This document shows, piece by piece, positions 2,620 through 33,157 of a stretch of 33,421 nt of DNA. Every line of letters starts with the position of its first letter. Positions within the stretch are counted from its first letter, which is position 1. The notes under the pieces were generated by a model. It saw only the letters and a list, made by a program, of their open reading frames with translations. It was not told where the DNA came from and did not search any database. The DNA lies in the IMG/VR virus record IMGVR_UViG_3300044490_000383, positions 1 to 33,421 of that record; one strand, given 5' to 3'. The stretch comes from a virus. The translations under genes were made by a program, and so were the position numbers.

Positions 2620-2643
2620 GTCTGGTCTGCGGAGGGCTTGGCC

Positions 2644-12606: not shown

Positions 12607-12793
12607 CGACGAAACGCGGGTCGAGGTCCTGACGTTCGACGATGGTTCCACGTTCAACGTCAGCGCCGAAATGCGGCGCAACAACGCCAAGGGTTATGCC
12701 GAGGCATGCAAACAGGCGGTCCGCCGCAAGTTCGCCACGGCGGTCGAGAAACCGGGGGCCATGACCTGGCCGAAGGAACCGAAGAAGAAGTGA
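12584..12793 (+). CDS. hypothetical small protein between terminase subunits
   Basis: 69 residues from ATG 12584, with GGAG 7 bases upstream; a second ATG at 12596 has weaker support. It overlaps the small terminase by 23 bp and its stop overlaps the GTG of the large terminase. N-terminal strands (RVEVLTFDDGSTFNVSAEM) and a basic helical C terminus. No family recognised. Confidence 0.55.
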   Translation: MPVPMLSDDETRVEVLTFDDGSTFNVSAEMRRNNAKGYAEACKQAVRRKFATAVEKPGAMTWPKEPKKK

Positions 12794-14269: not shown

Positions 14270-15988
14270 ATGCCCACCTACGACAGAACCGCCGAACGCC
14301 CCGCGCGCAAGACGCCCCTCACGCCCGAGCGCCGGACCGAGCAGATGATCCGCGCCGTGCAGCGCTACAACGCCTGGCGCGATACGCTCAATCCCCTCCG
14401 CTCCCTGACCATGCCCACCGCCGTCTCGTACCTGGAGCAGGCCCAGCGCGGCGCCTTTGCCGATCTCATGTGGCTCTACGAAACCGGCATCGAGTGCACC
14501 GACGCCGATCTCTCCTGCATCATCGAGCGCACCGAATCCGCGCTCGACGATTGCGAGTGGCAGATCCAGCAGATCTCCGACGAGACCGACGGATTCGACG
14601 CCGCCCTGGCCGACGAACAGGAGTCATTCCTCCGCGAACTTTACGAGGGCATCCCGAACCTCTACGAGGCCATCCGCCATCTCGCCGGCCATCGGTTCCG
14701 CGGCTTCGCCCACCTCAACCCCTGGATCAGCCCCGCCGACCCCATGATGATCGAAACCCTCCACTGTATTCCGCAGTGGAACCTCGCCCGCGCCGGGTAT
14801 AGCGGCGACTGGTACTGGAACCCCGAGGCGCGCCAGGTCTCCGGCGACTACCTGCCCAAAGAGAACCGGCTCGCCCCCGAAGAGATCATCTGGCTCCAAA
14901 CCCGGCGGCCCGTGAACCGGATCGGCCTCGTCAAATACGTCCGCTCCGCCATCGCGGAGAAGGACTGGGACGCCTACGTCGAGATCTTCGGCATCCCCGG
15001 CGTATTCCTGATCGCCCCGGAAGGCGCAGACGACAAGCAGATGGCCGAGTTCCTCGAACTCGCCGAGGCCGCGGCCCAGCAGGGCTCCGGCGCGTTGCCG
15101 GCCGGTTCCCAGGTCGTGACCTCCGCCGAGGCCCGCAACTCCCAGCCGTTTCAGGCCCGCCTGGAGTGGTTGCAGAAGCAGTTGGTCCTGGCCGGCACCG
15201 GCGGCCTCCTGACCGTGCTCGCCGAATCCGGCTCCGGCACCCTTGCCGGCAGCGTCCACGAGCAGGCGTTCCGCCAGATCGGCCGCGCCCTGGCCCGGCG
15301 CATCTCCGAGGCGTTCCAGCGCCAACTCGACAAGCCCCGCCTCGCCCGCATGTTCCCCGGCAAGCCCGTGCTCGCCTACTTCGATCTCAAGGCGCGCCAG
15401 GAGAAGGACACCGGCGACTTCGTGGCCCAGGTCGTTTCCCTGGCCGGCCAGGGCTACAAGGTCTCCCCCGACCAGGTGGAGCAGGAGACCGGCTACGAGA
15501 TCGAATATGCCCCGCCCGCGCCCCAGCCGCCCCAGATCCCCGGCGCCGCCTTCCGTGGCCGGGCCGATCCCGCCACTCCCGCGCTCGACGCGGCCGATGC
15601 CGGCCCCCTGGCCGCCTTGCAGGCGATATTCGCCGACCTCCAGGCGGCCGCCGCGGACGCCGCGATCCCCGACGCCGAACTCGAACGCCGCGTCCGGGCC
15701 GCCGCCGAGCGCTTCCCCGAACTCCTCCCCGACCTGACCGCCGCCATTGCCCGCCCCATGGCCCTCGACATGGCCGCCGCCGCCGTCGAGGGCGCCGCCG
15801 ACGGCGTCTCCCCCGAGAATCGCCAGGATGCCCCAGGACGCGCTGGGGGGTGTCAACATACGGACCCCCGCCCTCAAACCCGATTTCAAAAAGGTTCCGC
15901 CCCAATTCAAAAAGGTTCCAGGGCATCTTCCCGACCCGGAAAACACCCCAAACGGGACAAATTCCCGCTTACAGGAGACCGACCATGA
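14270..15988 (+). CDS. portal protein, DUF935 family (Mu gp29-like)
   Basis: 572 residues, slightly longer than Mu gp29. The N-terminal third has the DUF935 pattern (LEQAQRGAFADLMWLYETGIECTDADLSCIIERTESAL), and the middle has RPVNRIGLVKYVRSAIAEKDWDAYVEIFGIPGVFLI (about 221-256). The C-terminal 130 residues are Ala/Pro-rich, ending in a basic tail with two QKGS words and RPGKHPKRDKF. That tail spans AT-richer DNA with a repeated TTCAAAAAGGTTCC word at 15885-15918. The portal forms the dodecameric DNA gate at the head vertex. Stop overlaps the protease start (ATGA). Confidence 0.88.
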   Translation: MPTYDRTAERPARKTPLTPERRTEQMIRAVQRYNAWRDTLNPLRSLTMPTAVSYLEQAQRGAFADLMWLYETGIECTDADLSCIIERTESALDDCEWQIQQISDETDGFDAALADEQESFLRELYEGIPNLYEAIRHLAGHRFRGFAHLNPWISPADPMMIETLHCIPQWNLARAGYSGDWYWNPEARQVSGDYLPKENRLAPEEIIWLQTRRPVNRIGLVKYVRSAIAEKDWDAYVEIFGIPGVFLIAPEGADDKQMAEFLELAEAAAQQGSGALPAGSQVVTSAEARNSQPFQARLEWLQKQLVLAGTGGLLTVLAESGSGTLAGSVHEQAFRQIGRALARRISEAFQRQLDKPRLARMFPGKPVLAYFDLKARQEKDTGDFVAQVVSLAGQGYKVSPDQVEQETGYEIEYAPPAPQPPQIPGAAFRGRADPATPALDAADAGPLAALQAIFADLQAAAADAAIPDAELERRVRAAAERFPELLPDLTAAIARPMALDMAAAAVEGAADGVSPENRQDAPGRAGGCQHTDPRPQTRFQKGSAPIQKGSRASSRPGKHPKRDKFPLTGDRP

Positions 15989-17019
15989 CCAACGACCTCA
16001 CCGCCCGCGCCGCCTACACCCTCCAGACCGACCAGATCGCACCCGACGGCGCCGGAGCGCTGCCCATCTTCCACACCGTCCCAGCACCCGGCGCGTACCC
16101 CTCCAAGATCACCCTCCCGGACGGGACGGAGAAAAAAGGAACCCTCCTGATCGACGACCTCGCCTACCAGCGCATTCAGGCGGCTTTCAGCGAGGCGGCC
16201 CAGAAGCCCGCATTCGCCGGCCTCCTGGTTGACCGCGAGCACCTCTCCGAATTCCCCGCCGGCGACAGCACGGCCGCCGCCTGGGCCAAGACCATGCTCC
16301 GCCGCGACGATGGACTCTGGACCGGCTGGGAACTCACCGACCTCGGCCAGCAACTGATCCCGACCAAGCGCTTCAAATTCCGCAGCCCGGTTTTCGATCT
16401 CGAACGGGTCCAGGGGACCCAGGACAAATGGCGGCCCGTCAGGCTCGTCAGCATCGCGCTGACGAACGTGCCGCATTTCAAGCAACTGGCGCCATCGCTG
16501 AACAGCGAGCACGGCGCACGAGAGGAGGGACCCGCGATGGACGCACTCATCGCACGGATCCGCGCGCGACTCCAGAAACCCGACGCCGACGAGCAGCAGT
16601 TGATTGCTGCGTTCGACGCCGCGCTCACGGCGGGCGAAACCGCCACAACGGAAAACGCCACGCTCAAGGCCCGCGTCCAGGACTTCGAGAAGAAGGAGCG
16701 CGAAGCCGAGGCCGATGCGTTCGTCAAGGAGCACGGCGGCAAGGTCGCCGACGCGGCCAAACTCCGCGCCCGGTTCATTGCCGATCCGGCCGGCACCCGC
16801 GAGACCATCGCGCTGCTCAAGCCGGCCGACCGCACGCCCGATCAGCCCCGCTCGCTCGGCCGCGAGCAGGCGGAGCAGACGCCGGCGACGCCGGACGCCA
16901 TCGCCCGAATGCGCGATCAGACGGCCGCGGTGGACACCGCCATGGCCAAGTATCGCTGCTCCACCAGGGCGCAGGCGATCGAGTTCGCCCAGCGCGACAA
17001 CCCGCAGTTGTTCAAGTAG
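15985..17019 (+). CDS. head maturation protease with fused scaffold (Mu gpI-like)
   Basis: 344 residues. The N-terminal half matches Mu I-type proteases: GLLVDREHLSEF (H86), then AAAWAKTML, DDGLWTGWELTDLGQQLI and YR/FRSPVF-like FKFRSPVFDLE (about 132-142). The C-terminal half (about 185-344) is helical and charged, rich in Glu, Lys and Ala, as expected for a scaffold that fills the prohead. A strong internal ribosome site and ATG (16537) mark a nested scaffold product. GAGACC about 9 bases before ATG 15985 is a modest ribosome site; the start overlaps the portal stop. Confidence 0.85.
   Translation: MTNDLTARAAYTLQTDQIAPDGAGALPIFHTVPAPGAYPSKITLPDGTEKKGTLLIDDLAYQRIQAAFSEAAQKPAFAGLLVDREHLSEFPAGDSTAAAWAKTMLRRDDGLWTGWELTDLGQQLIPTKRFKFRSPVFDLERVQGTQDKWRPVRLVSIALTNVPHFKQLAPSLNSEHGAREEGPAMDALIARIRARLQKPDADEQQLIAAFDAALTAGETATTENATLKARVQDFEKKEREAEADAFVKEHGGKVADAAKLRARFIADPAGTRETIALLKPADRTPDQPRSLGREQAEQTPATPDAIARMRDQTAAVDTAMAKYRCSTRAQAIEFAQRDNPQLFK
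16537..17019 (+). CDS. nested scaffold protein from internal start (Mu gpZ-like)
   Basis: Perfect AGGAGG (16523-16528), an 8-nt spacer and ATG 16537 lie in frame within the protease gene, predicting a separate 160-residue product identical to the protease C terminus: coiled-coil helices (TATTENATLKARVQDFEKKEREAEADAF) and a basic, Gln-rich end. Mu makes its scaffold Z from an internal start of gene I in the same way. The ribosome site is better than that of the full-length gene, which would favour scaffold over protease. Confidence 0.8.
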   Translation: MDALIARIRARLQKPDADEQQLIAAFDAALTAGETATTENATLKARVQDFEKKEREAEADAFVKEHGGKVADAAKLRARFIADPAGTRETIALLKPADRTPDQPRSLGREQAEQTPATPDAIARMRDQTAAVDTAMAKYRCSTRAQAIEFAQRDNPQLFK

Positions 17020-17036: not shown

Positions 17037-17052
17037 CCGCGCCAACGCGCGG
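17037..17052 (+). other. stem-loop before the decoration gene
   Basis: CCGCGC (17037-17042), loop CAAC, GCGCGG (17047-17052): a perfect 6-bp GC stem with a tetraloop between the protease stop and the ribosome site at 17062-17066. Confidence 0.7.
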
Positions 17053-17073
17053 GCCACAACAAGGAGGCTGCAA

Positions 17074-17448: not shown

Positions 17449-17456
17449 GTTCAACC

Positions 17457-17483
17457 GCCGCGCCCGCCGTAGCGGGATGCGGC
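17457..17483 (+). other. stem-loop before the major capsid gene
   Basis: Two-part stem: CCCGC (17463-17467) with GCGGG (17472-17476) around loop CGTA, extended by GCCGC (17457-17461) with GCGGC (17479-17483) across a small bulge. Lies in the leader between decoration and capsid genes. Confidence 0.7.
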
Positions 17484-17514
17484 ACAACCACAACACACAG
17501 GAAAGGGAAAGAAC

Positions 17515-18453
17515 ATGGCAACGAATCCGCAGGGCGCAGTGCTCAACACCGCCCTCACCGAGTACGCATTCCAGATCGCCGCCGACTACAAAGGCATCGA
17601 GGAGGAGTGCAACTTTCTCGCCCCCCGCGTCGTCACCGGCGCCAAGAAGGGCGACTTCTCGATCTTCGACACCAAGCAGGCGTTCCTGAACTACGACGCT
17701 CAGCGCGCGATCGGCGGCCCCCGCCGCCGCATCAAGCACGCCGGAACGACCGGCTCCTACAACAACAGGCCGATCGGCCTCGAAATCGGCCTCGACGACG
17801 CCGAGGTCGAATCCGACTCCAGCCGGCCCAAGCAGGAGAAGGCGAAGATCAACACCCTCATGTCGAACTGGTCCGGGTCCCGCTTCGTGCGGGCGTGGAC
17901 CGTCGCGACGACCAGCGGCAACTACACCGCCTCGACCGTCACGAACTCCGGCAAGTGGTCCAGCGGCTCGATCGACCCGATCAAGGTCCTCGACGAAGAG
18001 ATCGCCCAGTTCGCCAACCGGACGGGCCGCCTGCCGAATCGCGGCATGCTCGCGCTCGACAACTGGATCACCCTCCGGCACCACCCGGAAGCCATCAAGC
18101 GTCAGCCCGGCGCCGCCAACATCGGCATCTCGCTCGAGCAACTGTCCGCGATGCTGGCCGCCCCGATCGAGTTCCGCCTGAACAAGACCTACATCGCGAC
18201 CACCGGGTTCGGCTCCAGCACCGACACCAAGGCCGCCAAGGTCCTCGGCTATTGCATGCTCTGGCTCGCCCAGAACACCGCAACGACCGAAGACCCGTCG
18301 TGGCTCAAGACCACGTCCCGCGACATTGGCGGGTTCGCCGGCGTCATGCAGTACCGCGACAACACCTGCAACTCCGACATCTTCTACCTCGACGACGAGG
18401 AGGATGTCGTGTGCGCCAGCGCGCTCTGCGCGCAACTCATCACGATCAGCTAG
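17515..18453 (+). CDS. major capsid protein
   Basis: 312 residues, about the size of Mu gpT (305). Recognisable capsid features: an N-terminal arm (NTALTEYAFQIAADYKGIEEECNFLAPRVV), a strand/helix core and KVLDEEIAQFANRTGRLPNRGMLALDNWITLRHHPEAI (about 162-199), the part many HK97-fold capsids share. Position after protease/scaffold and decoration genes, its own ribosome site (AGGAAAGGGAAAG) and flanking stem-loops fit a highly expressed shell protein. Assigned by pattern and synteny. Confidence 0.8.
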   Translation: MATNPQGAVLNTALTEYAFQIAADYKGIEEECNFLAPRVVTGAKKGDFSIFDTKQAFLNYDAQRAIGGPRRRIKHAGTTGSYNNRPIGLEIGLDDAEVESDSSRPKQEKAKINTLMSNWSGSRFVRAWTVATTSGNYTASTVTNSGKWSSGSIDPIKVLDEEIAQFANRTGRLPNRGMLALDNWITLRHHPEAIKRQPGAANIGISLEQLSAMLAAPIEFRLNKTYIATTGFGSSTDTKAAKVLGYCMLWLAQNTATTEDPSWLKTTSRDIGGFAGVMQYRDNTCNSDIFYLDDEEDVVCASALCAQLITIS

Positions 18454-18525: not shown

Positions 18526-18936
18526 ATGAAGAAGACACTCAGCATCGCGATCCTCGGCATGGCCATGCTTGCCGCCGGATTCGCTTTCGCCGGCGAACTG
18601 GCCGAACGCAGCGCCGCGATCACCCTCGGCACGACCACCGGAACCGCAACCTGGACCAATACCTACCAGTATTCGGCCCTCTTGCTCGACCGGATCGACA
18701 TCGTCAAAGGGCTCTACGCGACCGACACCGTCACGGTCAGGCGCGTGACCGTTGACAACGTCGTGACCAACACCATCAACGCGATCACGCTCGCCAGCGG
18801 GGCCGGCTCGTACAACATCGTGCAGACCACCTCCACCGGGCCGCGTGTGTTGATCTACGGCGACAAGATCACGTTCACCAGCGGATCCACAACCGGCGCC
18901 ACGGCCTACCTGGACTTCATCATCCAGAAGAACTGA
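18526..18936 (+). CDS. exported small beta-rich protein inside the head module
   Basis: 136 residues with a textbook Sec signal peptide: MKKT, a hydrophobic core (LSIAILGMAMLAAGFAFA) and a likely cleavage AFA|GE near residue 23. The mature part is Thr-rich and strand-forming (AITLGTTTGTATWTNTYQYSALL..., VTFTSGS...), like a small beta-sandwich. It lies between the major capsid and gp36-like genes with its own ribosome site (GAGAGGAC) and a stem-loop on each side. A secreted product at this place is unexpected. An alternative is a virion-surface protein whose N-terminal helix is not a true signal, but the n-h-c structure is strong. Confidence 0.7.
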   Translation: MKKTLSIAILGMAMLAAGFAFAGELAERSAAITLGTTTGTATWTNTYQYSALLLDRIDIVKGLYATDTVTVRRVTVDNVVTNTINAITLASGAGSYNIVQTTSTGPRVLIYGDKITFTSGSTTGATAYLDFIIQKN

Positions 18937-20954: not shown

Positions 20955-20956
20955 CC

Positions 20957-21476: not shown

Positions 21477-22400
21477 ATGGCAAACGACATCGAAATCATC
21501 GCCGGCCCCGCCGCCATTCTTTGGGACTCCACCGTGTTCTACGCCCAGGGCGACGTGACGATCCGCAAGATCGTCGGATCCTGGAACCCCGCCAGCGCCC
21601 AGTTCGGCACCCTGGGCAAGCGCCTCTCCTCGATCCACTACGAGATCAGCTTCACCCCCGTCGGCATCCTCACCGCCGCGCAACTCGGCAAGCTCTTTCC
21701 CTTCGACGCCGGCGACGTGGGCAGCAGCATTTACACCGCCTCCAACGTGCCCATGGTCGTCTGGTCCGCCGCCGGGAAGAAATACACCTTCACCCGCGCC
21801 GGGATCAGCAAGATGCCCAGCGTCCGCCTCTCCGCCAACTCCACCGCGTTCGGCGAAATGACCTTCTCCGCCGTGCTTGGCCTGGGCAAGGTCTCCGGCA
21901 CCGACGCCGACGCCTTCTACGCCATCTCCGCCGTCGCGTTCAACGACGTGTCCTTCGCCACGACCAATCTCGGCAGTCCCGGCTATCTCGGCACCTGGGG
22001 CTCTTACAGCAATTTCGAGACCCTCAACGGGTTCTCCATCGAGATCGCCATGGCCCTCGCCCCCTACAGTTCCGATCGCCTCGGCATTGTCGGGCACCGC
22101 ATCACCGGCTTCGAGACGACCGTCCGGTTCACCCCCACCCACCTCACCGAGGCCGACTTCTTCGCCATGACCCAGAACGGCGCCAGCGGCACAATTCTCG
22201 TGGGCCAGGCGTTCGGCAACGCCTCCAACGACCTGACCATTGCCGGGACCGGCGTGCAACTCGTGGTCCCCGCCGTCGGACCCGCCGAGCAGTCCACCCA
22301 CTTTGGCGCGCCCGGCCGCAACGGCGAAGTCGTCATGCACTCCACCCAGGAGTTCACCGCCGGAGTGCCCAGCGCGCTCCTGACCTGGACGATCTCCTAA
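21477..22400 (+). CDS. major tail tube protein
   Basis: 307 residues, beta-rich and low in charge, starting 4 bp after the previous stop. Long strand segments (VTIRKIVGSWNPASAQFGTLGKRLSSIHYEISFTP; MTFSAVLGLGKVSG; ITGFETTVRFTPTHLTEADFFAM; EVVMHSTQEFTAGVPSALLTWTIS) match the tail tube style of long-tailed phages. It lies between a tail-completion gene and tail tip/tape-measure genes, and there is no adjacent sheath gene, so the tail is probably non-contractile. Confidence 0.7.
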   Translation: MANDIEIIAGPAAILWDSTVFYAQGDVTIRKIVGSWNPASAQFGTLGKRLSSIHYEISFTPVGILTAAQLGKLFPFDAGDVGSSIYTASNVPMVVWSAAGKKYTFTRAGISKMPSVRLSANSTAFGEMTFSAVLGLGKVSGTDADAFYAISAVAFNDVSFATTNLGSPGYLGTWGSYSNFETLNGFSIEIAMALAPYSSDRLGIVGHRITGFETTVRFTPTHLTEADFFAMTQNGASGTILVGQAFGNASNDLTIAGTGVQLVVPAVGPAEQSTHFGAPGRNGEVVMHSTQEFTAGVPSALLTWTIS

Positions 22401-22409: not shown

Positions 22410-22814
22410 ATGATTATCAAGATCAACACGACGGCCCTTTGCGCGGGTTACGCCAGCAATCAGCACGTATTCGATTTCTCTTCCGAATGCGTGCGCGCCG
22501 TCCAGGACTCCAAGCCCATTGGCGCGTCCGCCGGTAAGGCCCTCGATCGCGGCAACCTCACCACCATCCGCGAGTTCTCCGTCGAGGTCATTTCCGACAG
22601 TCTCGAAGCCGCCGAAGAATACATCAACACCCAGGAGGCCGCCGCCATGGCCGCGTCCGGCGCCTTCACCTTCGAGGCCGAGCCCGCCGCGACCGGCGAC
22701 ACCGCAACCCTCTCCGATGCCGTCCTGGAGTCCGTCAGGCTCGTTCTGTGGCATGGCGTTTGCACTGTCTGGCGATACCGCATCCGCGGGGGAGTTCTAA
22801 CCGTAGCACCATGA
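22410..22814 (+). CDS. small tail protein, unknown
   Basis: 134 residues. KALDRGNLTTIREFSVEVISDSLEAAEEYINTQEAAAM (about 44-81) resembles small tail-associated proteins from many prophages, and the C-terminal VLESVRLVLWHGVCTVWRYRIRGG is a strand pair. Its stop overlaps the next start (ATGA). It may be a tape-measure chaperone or tube cap; this cannot be settled from sequence. Confidence 0.5.
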   Translation: MIIKINTTALCAGYASNQHVFDFSSECVRAVQDSKPIGASAGKALDRGNLTTIREFSVEVISDSLEAAEEYINTQEAAAMAASGAFTFEAEPAATGDTATLSDAVLESVRLVLWHGVCTVWRYRIRGGVLTVAP

Positions 22815-24535
22815 AAACCACCTTGAAACTCGCTTTCATTCCTCTGTTTCTCGGCCTTGCAACCGCCGCCGAATGGCCCCCGGTAATCCCCTGGACCATC
22901 GAGACCCGCGACCCCGCCGCCCAGAACCTCCGCATTCTCCGCAACGAGACCGTCCAACTCCGGCCTCAGTTCCTCAACGGCGCCGCCGCCGTGTCCATCC
23001 CCACCAACGCGACCGTCACCTTCCGCTATCGCGACGCCTCCATTTCCACGGGCGCCTACCACGTAGCGACCGGCACCGTCTACAACGCCACAAACGGCCA
23101 GGTCAACCTCCTCTGGGTCCCTGCCTACTGCGGCACCCTCACCAACTATGCATACAACATCCTCGTCTCCTCCAACACCGTCGTCTGCTACCGCGGCTTC
23201 GGCGGTCTCCGTTTCCAGGGCGTGGTGGAGGGCACCGTAACCACCAACCCCGCCGGCCGCATCACCATCGACTGGTCCCAGGTAGACAACTCCAACCTCG
23301 ACTCCGCCCCCTTCGCCCAAAGCGTCTCCGGCATCTCCTCTGCTCAGTGCGTCTCCATCGTCGGCAACATCCTCCCCACCGCCACCGTCTCCCACGCCAC
23401 AACCGCCGACACCGCCACCGACCCCCCCGCCCGTTCCAACGCTGCAACCGCCCAGGCCCGCGCCGATCTCAGCGTCACCAACGCCGGCGCCACGGTCAAC
23501 GGCCAGGCCATTTCCAACGGCGCCGCGATCGTCATCGACACCGGCGTTTCCACCGCGACCGCGACCAGCATCGCCCAGAACGTCGTCGCTCCCTACACCA
23601 ACGGCGCCGCCCTTGGCGCTACCGCGTTGCAACCCACCGGCAACGGCAGCGGCCTGACCGGCATCACGCCCGGGCAGATTGGAGCAGTTTCCCCGAGCAC
23701 CGCGACCCAGATCGTCGGGTCGGTAATGTCAACCGGAACCGCGGCTCTTGCGCAAGGGTTGTACAAGCAGATCAACCCCTCGTTTGCCATATCAATGAAC
23801 GGCGAAATGCACGCATCATCCGGAGCGTCCTGGAACATCGGGTATGGCGGTTTTGGAAGGGGCTTGTTCGGCCTCTATACCATATCCGAGGCGAACTTCT
23901 GGTCAGCGCCGACTCACGCCGTAAACATACAGATGCTCACTCAGCACGTTGCCTCCGCCACTGCATCCTCCGTCACCAACGCCGGCGCCACGGTCAACGG
24001 CCAGTCCATTTCCAACGGCGCCGCGATCGTCATCGACACCGGCGTTTCCACCGCGACCGCAACCAGCATCGCCGAGTCCGTCGTCGGTTCCGTCCTCCCC
24101 ACCTCCTCCGTCGCCCACGCCACAACCGCCGACACCGCCATAGACGCCACGGCCCGTTCCAACGCCGCAACCGCCCAGGCAACCGCCGATCTCGCCGGCC
24201 CGTATCTCGCCTCCGTCATCCGCCTCGACGCGACCAATCCGGTCATTGTGGTCAATGCGGTCTCCAACTACTTCCGCTGGGCGCCCACCAACGCTGGCGC
24301 CTGCAACGTCACAATCACCCCGCTCGGCACCAACATCGCAACCGTCGGCGTCTTGCACGGCTGGATGCAGCACACCAACACCATCGCCTGGGCCACCAAC
24401 ATTCTGTTCAACGTCACCGGCACCCACACCAACGCCGCTCCGTCTCTGCCGCAAGACTGGCGCTTCACCATCGAACTCAGCGAAGGCCAGGTCTGCCTCC
24501 ACCTGGCTCCGACCAACAACATCGCCCGCCCATGA
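22811..24535 (+). CDS. exported fibre/baseplate-like protein with duplicated segments
   Basis: 574 residues. A Sec-like signal (MKTTLKLAFIPLFLGLATAA) is followed by a beta-rich N-terminal domain (about 25-150) reminiscent of BppU-type baseplate upper domains, then Ala/Thr/Asn-rich helical and strand repeats like phage fibres. A block containing SVTNAGATVNGQ...ISNGAAIVIDTGVSTATATSIA occurs twice (23474-23574 and 23972-24072), and a second block with HATTADTA and ARSNAATAQ also occurs twice. The central 380 bp between copies uses different codons. It is cotranslated with the previous gene. If the signal is used, the protein leaves the cytoplasm, which is unusual for a tail component. The C-terminal 100 residues look like a lectin-type beta domain (unproven). 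Confidence 0.65.
   Translation: MKTTLKLAFIPLFLGLATAAEWPPVIPWTIETRDPAAQNLRILRNETVQLRPQFLNGAAAVSIPTNATVTFRYRDASISTGAYHVATGTVYNATNGQVNLLWVPAYCGTLTNYAYNILVSSNTVVCYRGFGGLRFQGVVEGTVTTNPAGRITIDWSQVDNSNLDSAPFAQSVSGISSAQCVSIVGNILPTATVSHATTADTATDPPARSNAATAQARADLSVTNAGATVNGQAISNGAAIVIDTGVSTATATSIAQNVVAPYTNGAALGATALQPTGNGSGLTGITPGQIGAVSPSTATQIVGSVMSTGTAALAQGLYKQINPSFAISMNGEMHASSGASWNIGYGGFGRGLFGLYTISEANFWSAPTHAVNIQMLTQHVASATASSVTNAGATVNGQSISNGAAIVIDTGVSTATATSIAESVVGSVLPTSSVAHATTADTAIDATARSNAATAQATADLAGPYLASVIRLDATNPVIVVNAVSNYFRWAPTNAGACNVTITPLGTNIATVGVLHGWMQHTNTIAWATNILFNVTGTHTNAAPSLPQDWRFTIELSEGQVCLHLAPTNNIARP
23474..24072 (+). repeat. direct repeat pair (~101 bp) flanking a distinct central segment
   Basis: Copies at 23474-23574 and 23972-24072 (498 bp apart) are nearly identical: I see two substitutions over about 100 bp. 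A second, less conserved pair (23376-23470 and 24098-24193) lies outside them. The middle 23590-23970 has fewer C-ending codons than its surroundings. Confidence 0.85.
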
Positions 24536-25242
24536 CCCTCCGCATCTCCATCTCCCTCGCCCTTCTCCTCCTCTCCGGCGCCGCAATCGCCGCCCCGCGC
24601 TGGCACTGGATTCCCCGCCCGCGTGCGGCCGGCTCCACGGGAACCGTCTGGCCCACCTCCATGTGGGCGCGCTACGAGTTCTCCGGCAACACGCTCGACA
24701 CGTCCGGCAACAACAACCACGGCACCGTCAGCAATGGTGCTTTGGTCTATGCTGGCGGCATCGCGGAGTTCACCAACAAGCCCTACATCGCGCTGCCCAC
24801 CACGTTCCAGACGACCAACGGCACCATTCTCCTCAAGATCAAGCCAACCGTCAGGGCAGACAGGGTTTGGTGGAGTCACAAGGCCACACGCGACGTGTTC
24901 TGCGACTTCTTGACGTCATCGTCTATCTTTCGGTTCGGGGCGGCAGGTGGCAATCCCTTCGGTTTCAATTTTACCGCAACGCCGACGAACGAATGGCTGT
25001 TGGCCGGTCTGAGCTTCGCATCCAACTCCTTCTACGCCGTGCTGTCCACCAACAGTGGCTCGACGTGGGCTACGCAATCTGACAACTCCGGCACAATGGG
25101 AGGAACGCTCACGGGGCACCGGATCGGCGACTACTACACCGGCGGATATCCGGTTTCCGGCTACGCCGACGAGGTGCAATTCTACTCGCGGGCAATGGAC
25201 ACCAACGAAATGACATCCACCCTTATCCTCCTCGGCCAATAG
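24532..25242 (+). CDS. exported LamG/concanavalin-type lectin protein
   Basis: 236 residues with a clear Sec signal (MTLRISISLALLLLSGAAIAA, cleavage AIA|AP). The mature part is a LamG/concanavalin A-like sandwich: WARYEFSGNTLDTSGNNNHGTVSNGALVYAGGIAEFTNKPYIALP at the start, NEWLLAGLSFASNSFYAVLSTNSGS in the middle and GYADEVQFYSRAMDTNEM near the end. Such domains bind sugars or act in surface adhesion. It overlaps the preceding gene by ATGA and so belongs to the tail operon. Its codon use is less C-biased than the neighbours in the middle, hinting at acquisition. Confidence 0.7.
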   Translation: MTLRISISLALLLLSGAAIAAPRWHWIPRPRAAGSTGTVWPTSMWARYEFSGNTLDTSGNNNHGTVSNGALVYAGGIAEFTNKPYIALPTTFQTTNGTILLKIKPTVRADRVWWSHKATRDVFCDFLTSSSIFRFGAAGGNPFGFNFTATPTNEWLLAGLSFASNSFYAVLSTNSGSTWATQSDNSGTMGGTLTGHRIGDYYTGGYPVSGYADEVQFYSRAMDTNEMTSTLILLGQ

Positions 25243-25252
25243 GAGCAACGCC

Positions 25253-25906
25253 ATGCTGACCAACACCCTCTTCTGCCTCTTCGCCGCAACCACTTTCCTC
25301 CGCGGCCCCGAACCCTGCCCAAACTCCTGGAACAACGTATCCGTCGGCGTAGACCTCGCCCCCCTCATCGAGCAAGGCTGGCTCCCCTACACCGAGCCCG
25401 TAGCCCCCGCCGGCTACCACGTCGATCAGTGGTCCACCCCATACCGCACCGCCGACAACACCTGCACCCGCACCCCGCTCGTCGTCCGCACCCTCGCCCA
25501 AAAAGCCGACGACGACGCCGCCGAGGCCGCAGCGAGCGCAGCGAGTCAGGCCGCCTCCGAAGCCGCCCGCAAAGCAACCCCCGTGGTCTTCGACCAACCC
25601 ATCCAGTCCCCGTCTGTCGAGACCCGGGCAACCGACGGCCACATCTACAGCCTCAAAGTGGACCCCACCGACGGCGAAGTCTTCGCCACTCAACGCGAGT
25701 CCCGGCGCACAACAGATGCGGAAGACCACGCCACAACAACCAACCGCCTCGCCGCCCGCGCCGCACGCCGCGCCAACCTCGCCGCCCTCAAGCAGACCAT
25801 CCAAGACATCGACCCCGCCGCCTTCCCCGCCGGCCCCGAGCGCCAGACCATTCGCGCCCTCAAAGACGCCCTTCAGGAAGTCCGCCGCATCCTGGCCAAG
25901 GAATAG
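25253..25906 (+). CDS. hypothetical tail-operon protein, possible signal peptide
   Basis: 217 residues, 10 bp after the LamG gene, preceded by AGGAGCAA. N terminus MLTNTLFCLFAATTFLRG is hydrophobic but lacks a basic start, so export is doubtful. A first domain (20-80) has Cys, Trp and Pro with the repeated look of small tail proteins (GWLPYTEPVAPAGYHVDQWS). A helical Ala-rich segment follows (about 85-105), and a charged coiled coil closes the protein (about 150-217, RLAARAARRANLAALKQTIQDID). No family recognised. Confidence 0.5.
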   Translation: MLTNTLFCLFAATTFLRGPEPCPNSWNNVSVGVDLAPLIEQGWLPYTEPVAPAGYHVDQWSTPYRTADNTCTRTPLVVRTLAQKADDDAAEAAASAASQAASEAARKATPVVFDQPIQSPSVETRATDGHIYSLKVDPTDGEVFATQRESRRTTDAEDHATTTNRLAARAARRANLAALKQTIQDIDPAAFPAGPERQTIRALKDALQEVRRILAKE

Positions 25907-25922
25907 AAAGGAAAAACCAGAC

Positions 25923-26264
25923 ATGTCCACCACACAAAACCGCCCATTCTCCGTGGCTTCCTTCGTGCTCTTCGTGTCTTCGTGGTTCCTCTTCTCCGGC
26001 TGCTCCCTCAACGACGATAACCGCGCCTCCTCCGTCGAATCCACCACCATCAACAACTCCGGAGTCAACCTCCCCACCAACGCAACCGAACTCGCCGACG
26101 GCATTTACCTCTACCAAGACGGCCAGGGCAACCGCCTCACCTACGATTCCCAGACCGGCGAAACACGCCCCCTCACCGTCCTCGTCCAATCCGGCACCGA
26201 CAACGTCCTCACCGTCTATATCGCCAACCCGCCCCCGCCTGAACTTCCCGAGGCAACCCCATGA
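25923..26264 (+). CDS. small lipoprotein; signal peptide encoded by a dispersed repeat
   Basis: 113 residues from ATG 25923. The signal VASFVLFVSSWFLFSGC ends in a lipobox-like F-S-G-C, so the mature product should be lipid-anchored at its Cys. The DNA for the hydrophobic core is an inverted copy of the CCACGAAGACACGAAG repeat (25951-25987). The mature part is short, Asn/Thr-rich and strand-like (GIYLYQDGQGNRLTYDSQTGETRPLTVLVQSG). Its stop overlaps the next ATG. An outer spanin (Rz1-type) role would suit the size and the adjacent small membrane protein, but the sequence is not recognisably a spanin. Confidence 0.6.
   Translation: MSTTQNRPFSVASFVLFVSSWFLFSGCSLNDDNRASSVESTTINNSGVNLPTNATELADGIYLYQDGQGNRLTYDSQTGETRPLTVLVQSGTDNVLTVYIANPPPPELPEATP
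25951..25987 (-). repeat. CCACGAAGACACGAAG-type dispersed repeat, inverted copy
   Basis: Reverse complement reads AACCACGAAGACACGAAG followed by AGCACGAAGGAAGCCACGG. Shares ACCACGAAGACACGAAG with 8961-8977. Here it is translated as the lipoprotein signal core. Confidence 0.75.
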
Positions 26265-26542
26265 TCCATCAACCCCCCATTGCCCGCCCCGCGCCGCATA
26301 GCGCCAGCGCAGCAAGCCAACTCCACGACGACGCCACCGATTTCCACTGCGAAACCGACACCACCCCAGAAGATCCTCACCCTGCCATCCGCGCCCTCAC
26401 CTGGGTCGTCGTGTTTTACCTCGTCGTCGGCATCGCCCTCGTCATCCTGACCAGTTGCAAAAGCCCCGCAACTCGCCAGTCCCCCTTCCCCCGCATGCTC
26501 GACCCCGTCACAGAGGAGGTTCCCTGTGTACTCTTCAAATAG
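26261..26542 (+). CDS. small single-pass membrane protein
   Basis: 93 residues with a polar N-terminal half (about 1-43, rich in His, Asp and Pro), one membrane helix (about 46-68, LTWVVVFYLVVGIALVILTSC) and a short polar end. The order polar-membrane-polar with a Cys after the helix is not a standard lipoprotein signal. It overlaps the previous stop and contains the ribosome site of the following peptidase gene. It could be a holin or inner spanin in a lysis cassette with neighbours; this is inference from position. Confidence 0.5.
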   Translation: MIHQPPIARPAPHSASAASQLHDDATDFHCETDTTPEDPHPAIRALTWVVVFYLVVGIALVILTSCKSPATRQSPFPRMLDPVTEEVPCVLFK

Positions 26543-27164
26543 CGACCTCCGCGTCGGCGGCGCACTCCTCGAATATCCCCGCGAAGGCGTCTCCCCAAAA
26601 CCCCTCCAACTCGGCAAAGACGTGTCCTGGCTCCAACACTGCCGCCTTGGCGACGACCAGGGCAAATCCCCCGCCTGCTCCATGTTCGCCTTCGCATCCT
26701 GGGCTCAGATCATGCGCGGCGTCACGATCTCCGACGACTACATCCTCACCCGGTTCCGCGAGACCGCCAAGGCACTCAACCGCCCATCCTGGGTCGGCCT
26801 CACCATGGGCGAGGCCTTCGCCTCCTGCTCCGCCGCCGGCATGCTCCCCAACGTCTCCACCATGGTCCACGCCGATCTCGACGATCTCGCCGCCCAGCCC
26901 CTGCTCGCCGTCTACACCATGTGCCCCGCCTGGGACACCCCCAGCGAATCCGGCTATCTCAACGACTCCCCCGGTTTCGAGCACCCCACCCGCGGTTTCC
27001 ATGCCGTCGCCATCGTCGCCGCCGGCGATGTCAAGGCGTTCAAGGCCGGCCCTTTCATCTACCTTGAAAACTCCTGGTCAAGGAACTGGGGCTGGAACGG
27101 ACTCGGCGTCATGTCCATGCCCCAGCATCAACGCCTCTGCCGCGAACTCTGGAAACTCACATGA
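26526..27164 (+). CDS. papain-family (C1-like) cysteine peptidase
   Basis: 212 residues from GTG 26526, with GGAGG 6 bases upstream inside the preceding gene. The papain set is complete and correctly spaced: oxyanion Q45, nucleophile C51 (DDQGKSPACSMFAF; the Gln-Cys gap of 6 is as in papain), H159 (RGFHAVAIV) and N182 in LENSWSRNWGWNGLGVM. It lacks a signal or propeptide. C1-type peptidases are rare among phage lysis or tail proteins. Possible roles are peptide cross-bridge cleavage, tail maturation or host-surface protein cleavage. Stop overlaps the next ATG, pairing it with a second papain-fold enzyme. Confidence 0.75.
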   Translation: MYSSNSDLRVGGALLEYPREGVSPKPLQLGKDVSWLQHCRLGDDQGKSPACSMFAFASWAQIMRGVTISDDYILTRFRETAKALNRPSWVGLTMGEAFASCSAAGMLPNVSTMVHADLDDLAAQPLLAVYTMCPAWDTPSESGYLNDSPGFEHPTRGFHAVAIVAAGDVKAFKAGPFIYLENSWSRNWGWNGLGVMSMPQHQRLCRELWKLT

Positions 27165-27643
27165 CCCCCCACATTGCCCTCTACCGCGGCGTTTCCCTCC
27201 TCTCCAAGGCCATCCGCTGCTTCAACTGGGGTCCATACTCCCACGCCTCCTGGCTCACCGCCGACGGCACCGAGATCGAGGCATGGCGCAAAGGCGTAAC
27301 CGAGTCTCCCGGCATCGGCTCTCAGCACACACCCGGCACCCGCATCGACCTCTTCACCGTCGCCGGCCTCACCCCCGAACTCCGCGCCGCCGCCGACGCC
27401 GCCATGCGCGCCTCCGTCGGCTTGCCCTACGACTGGCTCGGCATTCTCGGTTTCCTTGCCCGCGCCCGCGTCCAGCGCGAAGGCCGCCTCTTCTGTTCCG
27501 AACTCGTCTTCTCCCGCCTCGACAACGTCGGCCTCCCCCTCCTCAAGCGCGTCCCCGCTTTCAAGGTCTTCCCCGCCCTCCTCTCCTACAGCCCCCTTCT
27601 CACCCTAACCGCCACCGTCTTCGCCCCCAAGGCCCCCCAGTGA
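27161..27643 (+). CDS. YiiX/C92-like permuted papain-fold amidase or peptidase
   Basis: 160 residues. Permuted NlpC/P60-type order: His first (YSHASW, H28; then EIEAW), Cys later (LFCSELVF, C112), with PYDWLG between them (about 89-94). This is the arrangement of YiiX/YebB-like (peptidase C92) proteins. The predicted substrate is an amide bond in peptidoglycan or in a lipid, not determinable here. The start overlaps the C1-like peptidase stop; the next gene is the tape measure, so a cell-wall-opening role during infection or lysis is plausible (inference). Confidence 0.7.
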   Translation: MTPHIALYRGVSLLSKAIRCFNWGPYSHASWLTADGTEIEAWRKGVTESPGIGSQHTPGTRIDLFTVAGLTPELRAAADAAMRASVGLPYDWLGILGFLARARVQREGRLFCSELVFSRLDNVGLPLLKRVPAFKVFPALLSYSPLLTLTATVFAPKAPQ

Positions 27644-27668
27644 GCAAACGCAGCGAGCGAATCACCCC

Positions 27669-29054
27669 ATGAGCGACGACATCCTCATCCGCATCCTCAC
27701 CGCCTACCAGAAGGGCGGAGTCGAAGAGGCCAAGCGCTCCCTCAAGGAACTCAGCGCCGAGGCCAAGACCACCCAGCGCGCAACCGAAGATCTCTCCGCC
27801 TCCACAAAAAAATCCTCCAACGAGCACGCAAACGCAACCCGCGCCCTCGCCGGCCTCAACGCCGCCTCCGCCGCCGGCCGCGGCTCCATCATGGGCCTCG
27901 CCCAGGTCATGAACCTCCTCGGCGAGTCCGCCGCCGCCGTCGCCGCCAAAGTCACCCTCGTCGCCGGCGCCTTCACCGCCGGCTGGTCCCTCGGAACCCA
28001 GATAGACAAGTGGCTCAAACTCTCCCAGACCATCGCCGACACCGTCGCCCCCCTCGAAAAGGTCGCCTCCATCCAAGACCGCATCAAGGGCCAACTCGCC
28101 GCCATCAACGCCGCCAGCATCGCCAAGGTCACAAACGAGTTCGACGCCCTCTCCGCCACGCTCGCCGAAACCCTCTCCCAGATGGACCAGATCAACCGCG
28201 TCAAGAATCAACTCGCCGGCGCCGAGACCGAAGCCCAACTCGCCGAGATCGAGGCCGCCACACCCCCAGGCCCCGAACGCGATCGCGCAATCCTCGAAGC
28301 CCGCCGCAAGCGCGAACAAGCCTCGATCGACGAGCGCCGCGCCCAGGCCCGCGCCAAGTTCGCAGCCGCCGAACAAGCGCTCGCCGGCGGCCAGGCCGCC
28401 GTCGAGGCCGCCGAGTCCGCCGAAGGCGATGCCCGCAAAGAAACCATGCTTCTCCGCCGCGCCGATGCCGGGTCAACCGTCGAGGCCCGCACCGCCGCCC
28501 GCCTCCGCCTCGAAGGCGCCGAACGCGCAAGCGCCGCGGCCCGCGCCCGCCTCGATCCCCTCTCCGATGCCCACGGCATGGCCCTCATGGAGACCTCCAA
28601 CACCATGCGCGCGCTCGCGATCGAGGAGCGCACCTCCAAGGCCCGCTACACATCCGGAAATGCCGCGCTCACAGCCGATCAACAAGCCGCCCGCGCGCGC
28701 GCAGAAGCCCAGGCAGAAGCCGAACGCGCGCGCGCAGAAGCCCAGGCAGAAGCCGAACGCGCCCGCGTGCGGGCCAGGCAACAAGCCCTCCGCGAACGCA
28801 CCGAATCCGAAATGCTCGACATCTCCCGCAACGCAACCCGGTCCGCCCTCACCTCCCAGCGCGACGACCTCGCCGATCGCGCCGAATCCCTCCGCGCCTC
28901 CATGCCCGCAGCCCGCGTCACCGACCTCCGCGCCAGGGCCGCCGGCACCTATCGCCAAGCCGAATCCTCCGTCGCCGCCGTGGCCTCCGCCCTCGACGCG
29001 ATCACGGCCAAACTGAAACTCCTGGAGGACAAGATCAAGAACCTGCCCCGCTAA
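27669..29054 (+). CDS. tail tape measure protein
   Basis: 461 residues, mostly helix. N-terminal coiled coil (about 15-55), a hydrophobic segment (about 85-120, GRGSIMGLAQVMNLLGESAAAVAAKVTLVAGAFTAGWSLG), then long charged coiled coils rich in Ala, Arg and Glu (about 170-400) with a tandem 11-residue repeat ARAEAQAEAER. Tape measures set tail length at roughly 1.5 angstrom per residue, so this short one predicts a tail near 70 nm. No frameshifted chaperone gene was recognised upstream. Confidence 0.75.
   Translation: MSDDILIRILTAYQKGGVEEAKRSLKELSAEAKTTQRATEDLSASTKKSSNEHANATRALAGLNAASAAGRGSIMGLAQVMNLLGESAAAVAAKVTLVAGAFTAGWSLGTQIDKWLKLSQTIADTVAPLEKVASIQDRIKGQLAAINAASIAKVTNEFDALSATLAETLSQMDQINRVKNQLAGAETEAQLAEIEAATPPGPERDRAILEARRKREQASIDERRAQARAKFAAAEQALAGGQAAVEAAESAEGDARKETMLLRRADAGSTVEARTAARLRLEGAERASAAARARLDPLSDAHGMALMETSNTMRALAIEERTSKARYTSGNAALTADQQAARARAEAQAEAERARAEAQAEAERARVRARQQALRERTESEMLDISRNATRSALTSQRDDLADRAESLRASMPAARVTDLRARAAGTYRQAESSVAAVASALDAITAKLKLLEDKIKNLPR
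28701..28760 (+). repeat. 33-bp in-frame tandem repeat in the tape measure gene
   Basis: AGAAGCCCAGGCAGAAGCCG at 28701 recurs at 28734, with the following AACGCGC also shared. The period is 33 bp (11 codons), so gain or loss of units would change tape measure length in one-helix-turn-multiple steps. Confidence 0.85.
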
Positions 29055-29069
29055 GCCGCCCCCGCGTCC

Positions 29070-31562
29070 ATGGCTACCTACTACATATCCGCCAACGCCA
29101 CCGACTGGACCACCTTCGCCAACGCCGGAATCGTCCAGTGCCAACTCACCCTCTCCGCCATGGCCACCGATCGCCTCACCTTCTCGATCGACCCCACCAC
29201 CTGGACCGCCGCCGCCACTTACGCCACCGGCGACACCCTCTATTTCAAGCGCGATTCAACCGTCTTCTTCGTCGGCCGCGTCGCCGAGGTTCCACGCGAA
29301 GCAACCGGAACCCAGCACACCCTCTCCTACCTCGTCCAAGGCCCCTGGGCGCGCCTCGAAGGCGTCGCCTACGGCCAGACCTGGAAACTCCGCGGAACCG
29401 ACGACATCGAGGTGGACGTCGTCAAGCCCCGCGTCGTCCTCGGCCAGAACAACGCCGGCGCCCAGATCACCAACGGCGCCCAGATCGCCGCCGTCATTGA
29501 CTACGCCATCGCCCGCGGCATCCCCATCCTCAAGGGCACCATAGACGCCGGCATCGCCATGCCATACGACGAGCAGCGCCAACTCTCCTGCGCCGACGCC
29601 GTCCGCAAGTGCCTCCGCTGGGTCCCCGACTGGGTCTGCTGGTGGGACTATTCCACCCAGGACGCCGGCGTCTACAAGCCCACCTTCCACGCCCGCGCCG
29701 TCACCAACCTCTCCACCGCAACCCTCGACCTCACCTCCGCAACCAAGCCCGAAGAGGCGTCACTCCGCCCCCGCGCCGACCTCGTCGTCCCCGGCTTCCG
29801 CATCGTCTACGAGAAGACCCACACCTACGACAACAACACCTGGAACTCCTACCAACTCGACACCGCCGGCACCTACACAGACCCCGAGGCCATCGACCTC
29901 CTTTTTGAGCTCCAGGGAAACGTAATCACCGTCAACAAACAGACAATCGAGGTAGCCGCCTACCCCGACTTCGGCGTCCCCGCCCAGGTCAACGCCTTCT
30001 TCCGCCTCCACCTTCCCTGGCTCGCCGACATAGACGACGCCGACCTCGTCATTTCCACCCCCACCCGCAGCGGCGTCGAGAATTACGACTCCTATATCAC
30101 CGAGGGCGCCGTTCCCGACTGGTTGCTCACCCTCATCGGCGTCGAAGAAGAGATCATCACCGCCACCGTTGCCTACGTCCGCCGAGACGGTTCCGACAAC
30201 CCCATCGAAGACGTGGAACAGAAGGAAATCTCCGTCAAACTCCTCTCCACCAACGGAACCTCCCGCCAATACAAGCAGATCGCCTCCATCTCATACGGCG
30301 AGACCACCCCCGTCGGCGTCGCCGCCGCCCTCTACGCCTCCTGGACCAAACTCCACTACGAGGGCACCCTCTCCCTCATCCAGGCGTACCCCGATTTCGC
30401 CTACGTCCCAGGCTACAAACTCAACATCTCCAACGGACTCGCCGCCTGGGCGACCATGGCCGCCATCATCCAGGAGGCCACGATCAGCCTTTTCGACGGC
30501 ACAACCACCTTCCGGATCGGTCCACCCGGCCGCCTCGATGCCGACACCCTCGTCGCCCTCTTTCGCGCAACCCACAACCGCTGCTTCTCCTGGTCCCGAA
30601 TCCAGCGCACTTCCTCGGCCCTTGCCGGCGCTGAAACCGACGGCCCAAAGAACCTCCCCCGCGAGCGCCACTCCGACGGCGATCCCGGCCTCACCCGCCG
30701 CCTCCAGGTCCGCGCCGAGGATCCCGACGACAACCTCCACGTCCTCGACTTCGCCCCCGAAGATGTCGAGTTCGCCGACCCCGCCGACAAGGCCCCCGTC
30801 CTCCTCGCCCCCCGCGAACTCCTCATCCCCGAACTCTCCGGCGCCTCCTACGTCCTCAAGCGCCGCCAGGTCCTCGCCTCCGCCTCCTACCACGCCGCCG
30901 TCCCCCTGTCCGGCGCCACGAGGCACCCATTCCGCTTCACCCAGACCTCCAGCACCGGCGGCGACATCGAGACTGGCCTCCTCTATTTCAACGGCGTTCA
31001 AATCACCATCACCGGCCTCCCAGCCAGCCTGGCCTCCGTCACCACCACCACCCGCTACTACATCGCCGTTACCCTCTCCGCCGGCACCGCCGAATGGCTC
31101 TCCACCTCCGGCGCCTTCCCCGACGACGTGGACGACACCGAGATCTACCCCATCCTCGCCCTCACCTGCGCCGACTCCGTCATCACCGACATCAAGCAGC
31201 ACCGTTGGTCCGACATCGTCGTCCGCTACCACGCCGAAACATCCGGCGGCCTCGACCTTTCCAAGGTCTCCTTCGGCTATTCCATTTCCGGCTCCACCGT
31301 CACCATCAAGGCCGGGTACATCCGCCTCCAGGACGGCCGCGCCGTTGTCACCGCGGCCCAGTACCAATTCTCCCTTGGTGGAACCATGTTTGCCTACGTC
31401 TCCTGGGATCGCGTTTCCTCCACCGCCACGATCTCCGCGGCCGCCACGCTTCCCGCCCCGGCCCTCAACTACATGCGCATGCCCCTTCATGAGTTCGACG
31501 ACACCGGGCACGTCCACACCTACCACGTCGGAGACCTCCTCTTCGACATACCGATCCGATGA
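29070..31562 (+). CDS. large tail tip/hub (baseplate) protein
   Basis: 830 residues, the largest gene in the window, directly after the tape measure as in siphovirus tail tips. The N-terminal 350 residues are strand-rich with tail-hub-like segments (LYFKRDSTVFFVGRVAEVPREATG...HTLSYLVQGPWARLEG; CADAVRKCLRWVPDWVCWWDYST). The C-terminal part (about 610-830) is Thr/Ser-rich with fibre-like strands ending in HEFDDTGHVHTYHVGDLLFDIPIR. Probably forms the tip that carries host-recognition parts. Stop overlaps the next ATG. Specific family not recognised. Confidence 0.65.
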   Translation: MATYYISANATDWTTFANAGIVQCQLTLSAMATDRLTFSIDPTTWTAAATYATGDTLYFKRDSTVFFVGRVAEVPREATGTQHTLSYLVQGPWARLEGVAYGQTWKLRGTDDIEVDVVKPRVVLGQNNAGAQITNGAQIAAVIDYAIARGIPILKGTIDAGIAMPYDEQRQLSCADAVRKCLRWVPDWVCWWDYSTQDAGVYKPTFHARAVTNLSTATLDLTSATKPEEASLRPRADLVVPGFRIVYEKTHTYDNNTWNSYQLDTAGTYTDPEAIDLLFELQGNVITVNKQTIEVAAYPDFGVPAQVNAFFRLHLPWLADIDDADLVISTPTRSGVENYDSYITEGAVPDWLLTLIGVEEEIITATVAYVRRDGSDNPIEDVEQKEISVKLLSTNGTSRQYKQIASISYGETTPVGVAAALYASWTKLHYEGTLSLIQAYPDFAYVPGYKLNISNGLAAWATMAAIIQEATISLFDGTTTFRIGPPGRLDADTLVALFRATHNRCFSWSRIQRTSSALAGAETDGPKNLPRERHSDGDPGLTRRLQVRAEDPDDNLHVLDFAPEDVEFADPADKAPVLLAPRELLIPELSGASYVLKRRQVLASASYHAAVPLSGATRHPFRFTQTSSTGGDIETGLLYFNGVQITITGLPASLASVTTTTRYYIAVTLSAGTAEWLSTSGAFPDDVDDTEIYPILALTCADSVITDIKQHRWSDIVVRYHAETSGGLDLSKVSFGYSISGSTVTIKAGYIRLQDGRAVVTAAQYQFSLGGTMFAYVSWDRVSSTATISAAATLPAPALNYMRMPLHEFDDTGHVHTYHVGDLLFDIPIR

Positions 31563-33157
31563 TCCCCCGCATCTTCTTGGCCCTCTGCCTTGCCCTGTGC
31601 GTCGCACAACTGCCGCGCGCAGACTCCTGGGACTGGCCCGCAACCCCCCCGTCCACATGGTACGAGGTGGACGACATGCGCCTCTATGCCCAACTCTGGA
31701 CCGCCACGGTCGAACGCTGCCTTGTGTCCGGCGTCGCGTTGGTCAGCATGATCGAGACCTGGTCCTGTCACGCCGGCGGCACCAACAGAATCACCGTCAC
31801 AACCACCAACCAGTTCGCCCCATTCCTATACCAGTACTACGACACCGGATCCGCCAGCTACGTCACCGCCACGGGGTTCCCAATCGTCACCACCCAGGCC
31901 ATTGTCCGCCTCACCAAAGCCGTCAACGACTGCATTCCCTATTTCGTGGACATGGCCGCCTTCGGGACCAACTCCAGCTACCTCTGGACCAACAACGTCG
32001 TCGCCACATCCGCAACCGAGTTGGCGACAATCGAGGTCCCCATGCTCACCGACGCCGTCCTGGCCGACACCGGGGCAGGGTGGTTGGAGACATCCGGAAC
32101 CAATAGGTGGGGCATCACGAACTCCGCCGTCGGCTGGTGGTGGTACGGCGACGAGACCGGCGACGCGGAGACCCCCCTCTTTGCCGCCCGCTACTACTCC
32201 AACGCCTGGCAGACCTGCCTATCCGCCGACACCCCCCACAACGGCGTCAACATCCGATGCCGCGACCGCACCAACGTTGTCCCCCAGGGGCGCTACCAAG
32301 CAGGATCCGGCCTGGGCGTCACCAACGACGTTTCCATCCGCCTTGTAACCCGCGCCATCGTTCCCACCAACGAAACCCTGCTCACCGTCACCCAGACGCT
32401 CGTCTTTGCCGCGTCCCCGACCCAGACCTTGTCCTATTGGGCCGACTCGGTCCTGTCCATTTCCACCCTGTCAGGGTCCCCCTCGAACAACGATTCCGTC
32501 GTCATTGTCTACACCAACGCCCTTCGCTACGGCACCCCCGACGGCAGCGTTGTCCCCCCCCGTCTCTACTGGCGCACCTTCCAGGTCCTCAAGGACATGC
32601 TTCACCGCATGCACTGGACCAAGTTCGCCCCCACCATCGTGACCGCCGGATACCCATACTGGCGCGACTTCACCTTCGACCGGCCGACGACGGTGTCCAA
32701 CCAAGCCCTTCTGTCCTCGCGTTGGCCGACCAACCTATCCGCGACCCTGCTTGGCACCGTCCACCTCGGCAACCAGTCAGATCCCAGGGTCAACATGTCC
32801 AGTCGAGAGACCCACCTGACTGCCGTCACCAGCCTGACCACCAACTTCGCCAAACAGGGCGACCTGTACATTGCCGTGACTGAGCCGACCGGCTCCGGAT
32901 GGGGCGGAATCACCCAGCGACTCTTTCATGCCTGGGACATGCCTTATCGCCAGTACCAGTACATGCTATTAGCCTCAACCAATTCCCCTGCTGGCGAGTA
33001 CCTGACCAACGCCGTCCCCTTGCACACCCTCAACATTGGCACGAACATCCCCTGGGAGGTCATTGGAACAGCCCCGAACAGCGTTGTCGGTTACGAAGTG
33101 GCCTGGGCTCGCTGGATCATCCGTTGGAACGTAGCCGGCGGCTTCTCCTACCCCTGA
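31559..33157 (+). CDS. exported large protein at the end of the tail operon
   Basis: 532 residues. A plausible Sec signal (MIPRIFLALCLALCVAQLPRA) precedes a Trp/Tyr-, Asn- and Thr-rich mature protein with many short strands (YTNALRYGTPDGSVVPPRLYWRTF; PYWRDFTFDRPTTVSN), no charged repeats and several Cys. It starts inside the stop of the tip protein, so it is translated in step with tail genes, and it is the last gene of the prophage. It would normally be called a tail fibre or receptor-binding protein by position, which conflicts with the signal. No family recognised. Confidence 0.6.
   Translation: MIPRIFLALCLALCVAQLPRADSWDWPATPPSTWYEVDDMRLYAQLWTATVERCLVSGVALVSMIETWSCHAGGTNRITVTTTNQFAPFLYQYYDTGSASYVTATGFPIVTTQAIVRLTKAVNDCIPYFVDMAAFGTNSSYLWTNNVVATSATELATIEVPMLTDAVLADTGAGWLETSGTNRWGITNSAVGWWWYGDETGDAETPLFAARYYSNAWQTCLSADTPHNGVNIRCRDRTNVVPQGRYQAGSGLGVTNDVSIRLVTRAIVPTNETLLTVTQTLVFAASPTQTLSYWADSVLSISTLSGSPSNNDSVVIVYTNALRYGTPDGSVVPPRLYWRTFQVLKDMLHRMHWTKFAPTIVTAGYPYWRDFTFDRPTTVSNQALLSSRWPTNLSATLLGTVHLGNQSDPRVNMSSRETHLTAVTSLTTNFAKQGDLYIAVTEPTGSGWGGITQRLFHAWDMPYRQYQYMLLASTNSPAGEYLTNAVPLHTLNIGTNIPWEVIGTAPNSVVGYEVAWARWIIRWNVAGGFSYP

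Follow-up and report, generated by a model that had tools for sequence, protein, structure and literature searches.

The export signals on fibre-like and lectin-like products that are coupled to tail genes in this phage are real and conserved. In the window, i.e. the whole stretch of DNA analysed (an IMG/VR viral contig of 33,421 bases), the proteins encoded at 22811, 24532, 31559, and 18526 (genes are referred to by their start positions) may be peripheral virion proteins, namely fibres or receptor binders and a capsid-side decoration, with cleavable Sec signals and joined to the particles outside the cytoplasm; we put the probability of this reading at about 0.5. Conserved fibre genes with cleavable export signals either break the rule of cytoplasmic assembly or reveal a surface set made by the phage. 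The discovery of receptor-binding proteins is affected as well, as annotation would tend to file such proteins as host secreted.

Judged from its genes, the window phage is a B3-like transposable phage. A Mu-type transposase and a MuB ATPase are present together with a Mu-like portal and protease and a B3-like terminase (Table 1). The terminase matches those of phages B3 and Lsp-JY19 at 36-37% identity (35-37% across the B3-like comparison). The gene order is consistent with a siphovirus tail with tube and tape measure, and no sheath gene was seen, so far as a morphology can be read from genes. Among bacterial genomes, the nearest terminases are found in Lentisphaerota (59-64%), followed by Kiritimatiellae and Verrucomicrobiota, and the capsid, tube, and tail proteins are closest to those of phages of Verrucomicrobiota-type hosts. 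Single-protein scans of viral_contigs gave no close relatives of the window. Between the transposase genes, positions 4890-6731 encode a protein resembling C5 cytosine DNA methyltransferases by its FCGAGGSS and ENVREF motifs.

Table 1. Features of the window with coordinates, strand, and the observations behind each assignment.
Coordinates	Strand	Feature	Observations
2638..4671	+	Mu-type transposase A	PHROG 310 transposase, E 1.4e-7
6728..7702	+	MuB-like ATPase	Pfam AAA_22 3e-17, TniB 4e-4
12706..14259	+	Terminase large subunit	PHROG 5909 3e-32; alternative start 12790 possible
14270..15988	+	Mu-like portal	Pfam Portal_Mu 5e-33
15985..17019	+	Mu-like protease/scaffold	Pfam Mu-like_Pro 1e-17
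17515..18453	+	Major capsid protein	PHROG 1005 major head protein 2e-22
18526..18936	+	Signal-bearing capsid-side protein	Sec signal; mature part beta-rich
21477..22400	+	Tail-tube-position protein, landmark gene	Homologues present in several of the related loci; no signal
22410..22814	+	Small tail gene	Joined to 22811 by an ATGA overlap; no signal
22811..24535	+	Exported fibre-like protein (predicted)	Signal at residues 1-19, then a conserved N-domain (~27-163) and a repetitive body of low charge
24532..25242	+	Exported LamG/ConA-lectin-like protein (predicted)	Signal; Laminin_G_3 E 0.0019, under Pfam cut-off
25253..25906	+	Protein without convincing signal	Rule-set result
25923..26264	+	Lipoprotein, putatively an outer-membrane spanin or another lysis component	Lipobox FSGC
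26261..26542	+	Small protein with one TM segment, putatively a holin or inner spanin	TM from residue 45
26526..27164	+	Papain-like cysteine peptidase, candidate wall enzyme	PHROG 16701 peptidase 5e-6; Peptidase_C1 0.012
27161..27643	+	YiiX/NlpC-like protein	PHROG 1128 1.4e-24; YiiX/NlpC class by inspection
27669..29054	+	Tape-measure-position protein	Position and weak homology to L094 and L097; no signal
29070..31562	+	Conserved tail protein, landmark gene	No signal; matched in four related loci at E 1e-52 to 1e-25
31559..33157	+	Exported protein after tail gene (predicted)	Signal

In order to call signals, we used a rule set comprising a charged n-region, an uncharged h-region, an AxA-type site, and no further membrane stretch. 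When calibrated on E. coli K-12, it found 11 of 13 exported proteins, called none of 56 cytosolic proteins, and miscalled two of 15 inner-membrane proteins. The Sec signals of the original prediction were recovered at 22811 (cleavage after residue ~19), 24532 (~20), and 31559 (~16, with a weaker c-region), as was the lipoprotein signal at 25923 (lipobox FSGC). The doubtful signal at 25253 was not called, its n-region having no K/R, and 25253 was rejected as an exported protein. The set was extended by 18526, which adjoins the capsid gene and has a signal as strong as any in the window (cleavage after ~22). The start codon of 22811 is secure, the next in-frame start beyond the signal region being codon 61. 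The ATGA overlaps said to couple signal-bearing genes to tail genes were found with their open reading frames as described, as 4-base overlaps at 22410/22811, 22811/24532, 25923/26261, 26526/27161, and 29070/31559. The core tail and head genes have no signal, and signals are confined to the outer parts. Based on the n-h-c signals and peptidase sites at true starts, 22811, 24532, 31559, and 18526 are predicted to be translocated by Sec.

Terminases were located in viral contigs and named genomes, the late regions downstream of them were retrieved, and the genes of GC-rich loci were called with a codon-trained caller. In L095, L096, L100, L196, and L198, the tube and tail genes flank signal-bearing genes; in L099, where the locus stops short of the tail gene, such genes follow the tube, and in L098 they follow the tape measure. 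In addition, the tail-protein profile (A7) was used alone as query in 388 Verrucomicrobiota genomes, which gave nine fetched loci with both landmark genes (tail tube and tail protein). In eight of these nine, signal-bearing genes of at least 200 aa, up to several consecutively, lie between the landmark genes; the ninth has one signal-bearing gene, located after the tail gene. A signal-bearing gene directly follows the capsid gene in four of the nine. In total, strict signals were called on 25 of 124 late genes in the blind-found Verrucomicrobiota prophages, compared with 4 of 325 in non-PVC B3-like prophages (two of the four in one Riflebacteria prophage, one being fibre-like) and 2 of 153 in the Lentisphaerota relatives, though the latter are nearest to the window by terminase. 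The enrichment (Fisher p 1e-11) is indicative only, because genes within one locus are not independent. The N-domain of 22811 (A9) served as query for another blind search, which led to further loci, most of them with runs of signal-bearing genes beside the N-domain gene (five consecutive in L295). A 4-base start-stop overlap with the preceding gene was seen in all 12 loci checked. The Riflebacteria B3-like prophage L211 encodes a signal-bearing BNR-type fibre-like protein (15508-17574), from which the trait may extend beyond the PVC group. A Pedosphaera prophage (L195, 9937-13383, minus strand) encodes a signal-bearing protein of 1149 aa; it has a GDSL-like esterase motif, and its end is fibre-like.

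From their domain content, some signal-bearing proteins in the slot are certain fibres. L268_3278 ends in a Phage Tail Collar domain (PF07484, E 2.3e-19, above the curated cut-off) and is matched by 626 phage records, and L095_7050 has common tail-fibre repeats and matches in 70 phage records, for many of which the annotation reads tail, short tail fibre, or virion protein. Furthermore, collagen repeats occur in the signal-bearing L198_8166 and BNR repeats in the signal-bearing L269_7344. In the window itself, 22811 and 31559 match no known fibre family in Pfam or PHROG (22811 has no Pfam match), 31559 has no relative in viral_contigs, and the weak LamG match of 24532 (Laminin_G_3, E 0.0019) is the sole fibre-type domain match among the three. 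LamG is also found within a signal-less fibre of the Cerasicoccus arenae prophage L204 (E 4.5e-19). Signal-bearing fibres of L198 (8166-10133), L260 (6019-7377), and L259 (4552-6513) carry a C-terminal trypsin-like GDSGSP (or GDSSSP) motif and are possibly protease-tipped.

The N-domain of 22811 belongs to the same family as those in L095_7050 and L198_8166, and it scores E 7e-13 against a profile from which the window was left out. The signal immediately precedes this domain in all ten first-found members, and copies without a called signal are found in L297 and L299. The AlphaFold model of the domain was unusable (pLDDT 34), and a profile match to the Siglec-like domain of GspB (PDB profile, E 0.001), at best indicating an Ig-like fold, was set aside. 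A second domain family with the motif RIRIA..DA...RGDD.QFE occupies the same slot; kinship of the two families is unsupported (profile comparison probability 0.6%). The second domain occurs as a small signal-less protein in L268, L263, L269, L098, and L101, with a signal-bearing fibre directly next in the first three and some genes later in L098, while L101 ends there. It heads whole signal-less LamG fibres in L204 and L194, and a fibre with a signal in L099 (L099 against L268, blastp 4e-10). By its position, it would be an attachment domain that serves fibres with or without a signal. In the aligned proteins, the signal is a plain N-terminal addition. Because the second domain occurs both with and without a signal that is merely prepended, these alignments suggest that such proteins are ordinary fibres tagged for export by the signal, which is the best argument for that view.

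The capsid-side protein 18526 has signal-bearing homologues in L096_3051, L198_4541, and L269_3579, and thus represents a conserved family encoded directly after the major capsid gene. It scores 2e-11 against an HMM from which the window was excluded, and its structure model (pLDDT 74) is all beta.

Three explanations had been offered for the exported set: lysis or envelope functions, host-surface display, and a tail whose outer parts are added outside the cytoplasm. The last is the best fit for 22811, 24532, 31559, and 18526. These proteins would be made late alongside the tail, the same strand and translational coupling being observed, and, as their signals imply, would cross the inner membrane, be trimmed by signal peptidase, and presumably fold in the periplasm or at the surface. 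The tails and heads would be built in the cytoplasm, where the core proteins, having no signal in their sequences, should stay. The exported parts could then bind tails and heads once both meet, most simply at lysis or envelope rupture. More tentatively, and a little short of an even chance, we propose that particle assembly in the tailed phages of Verrucomicrobiota is completed outside the cytoplasm, with Sec-secreted fibres and head decorations attaching to tails and heads released at lysis. If true, such extracytoplasmic assembly would be new in kind, as two-compartment assembly is undescribed for tailed phages. In favor of virion proteins, related phages have, in the same slot, signals on mature proteins that are unrelated to one another. 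Against them stand the signal-less N-domain copies, the mostly signal-less Lentisphaerota relatives, and the lack of known fibre family matches for 22811 and 31559. The mature parts show no enrichment of cysteines (0.60% v 0.82%, p 0.34), a further point against, and the disulphide idea was rejected because this leaves no disulphide signature of periplasmic folding. We know of no mechanism that brings exported fibres to cytoplasmic tails.

The main rival, which we consider unlikely, retains host-surface display: the fibre-like and lectin proteins would be exported but never placed on the virion, and would either cover the infected or lysogenic cell or be released from it, where they bind the receptor of the phage itself or neighbours (for superinfection exclusion, for adhesion, or as a decoy), with 29070 or others as receptor binder. 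The good signals and the membrane that separates a cytoplasmic tail from an exported fibre agree with this, and the C-terminal extension of ~300 residues of 29070 could bind receptors. Fibre-like proteins outside virions also exist, e.g. WceF, an exported tailspike-like enzyme of Pantoea that combines a phage-type fold with an export signal (PMC7949094). Display leaves unaccounted for, however, that the signal-bearing genes are placed in and coupled to a late tail operon, that signal-bearing proteins have collar and fibre-repeat domains, that the attachment-like domain right after the signal is also found in signal-less fibres, and that another signal-bearing gene adjoins the capsid gene. It also fits poorly with L259, where the tail protein is short (524 aa) and there are few other fibre candidates. 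In that locus, the receptor binder is likely among the signal-bearing genes, because host-like DNA follows the tail gene and the sizeable fibre-like genes mostly carry signals.

An explanation we regard as improbable is that the hydrophobic starts are retained and serve assembly (tail-tip docking or oligomerisation) or membrane insertion during infection. Sinorhizobium phage Aussie (L004) has an annotated tail protein (30701-33496) with a signal-like start and a second hydrophobic stretch, and such starts therefore need not always mean export; the cysteine content, without trace of an oxidising compartment, likewise accords with retention. However, the window proteins show classic n-, h-, and c-regions with AxA-type sites, which are absent from the 56 cytosolic controls, and the signals are found on many proteins that are not related to one another, one of them on the capsid side. 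The segment is, moreover, a dispensable N-terminal addition to a homologous domain, and the secure start of 22811 speaks against retention as well.

That the whole set is a lysis or envelope module unrelated to tails is highly improbable: the products of 25923, 26261, 26526, and 27161 (lipoprotein, single-TM, peptidase-like, and YiiX-like) would suit it, as would the lack of a noticed lysozyme-type gene in the window upstream of the terminase, where B3 has one, but the collar, fibre-repeat, collagen, and LamG domains on signal-bearing proteins are left unexplained. The lysis reading is likely true for 25923-27643 only, with 25923 and probably 26261-27643 as its members. Here the genes for the lipoprotein, TM protein, and peptidase-like proteins adjoin one another, and they may form a lysis cassette embedded between the fibres and the tape measure. 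L259 has a short lipoprotein and a homologue of 27161 at the corresponding place.

Among known systems, the window phage shares transposase A/B, terminase, capsid-tail gene order, and Mu-like portal and protease with the B3-like siphophages (Pseudomonas phage B3, Beetrevirus; Leptolyngbya phage Lsp-JY19; Sinorhizobium phage Aussie). It differs from B3, where none of the late proteins tested has a signal, by having several. Lsp-JY19 gave one borderline call, on a small head protein, and Aussie has a few signal-like starts, with none on its annotated fibre gene. A small Aussie protein encoded before the capsid gene (20477-20983) has a clear signal. The lysis genes of B3-like phages lie before the terminase, whereas those of the window apparently sit within the tail module. 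Conventional tail fibres have no signal and are both made and attached in the cytoplasm. Their domains (Phage Tail Collar, tail-fibre repeats) are the same as in the signal-bearing L268_3278 and L095_7050, and the difference is the signal. Our search of the open-access literature turned up neither tail fibres reported to carry export signals nor a described module of such composition, as the original prediction had supposed. Filamentous phage coat proteins are virion proteins that are exported by Sec and assembled at the membrane. Those phages, in contrast to the window phage with its signals on outer parts only, are tail-less and extruded without lysis. Chronic release without lysis in Lentisphaerae concerns filamentous phages and is a weak link (PMC11361711). 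The nearest analogue found is the host-encoded WceF, which differs in belonging to a polysaccharide operon and having a Tat signal, whereas the window genes form part of a tail operon (PMC7949094).
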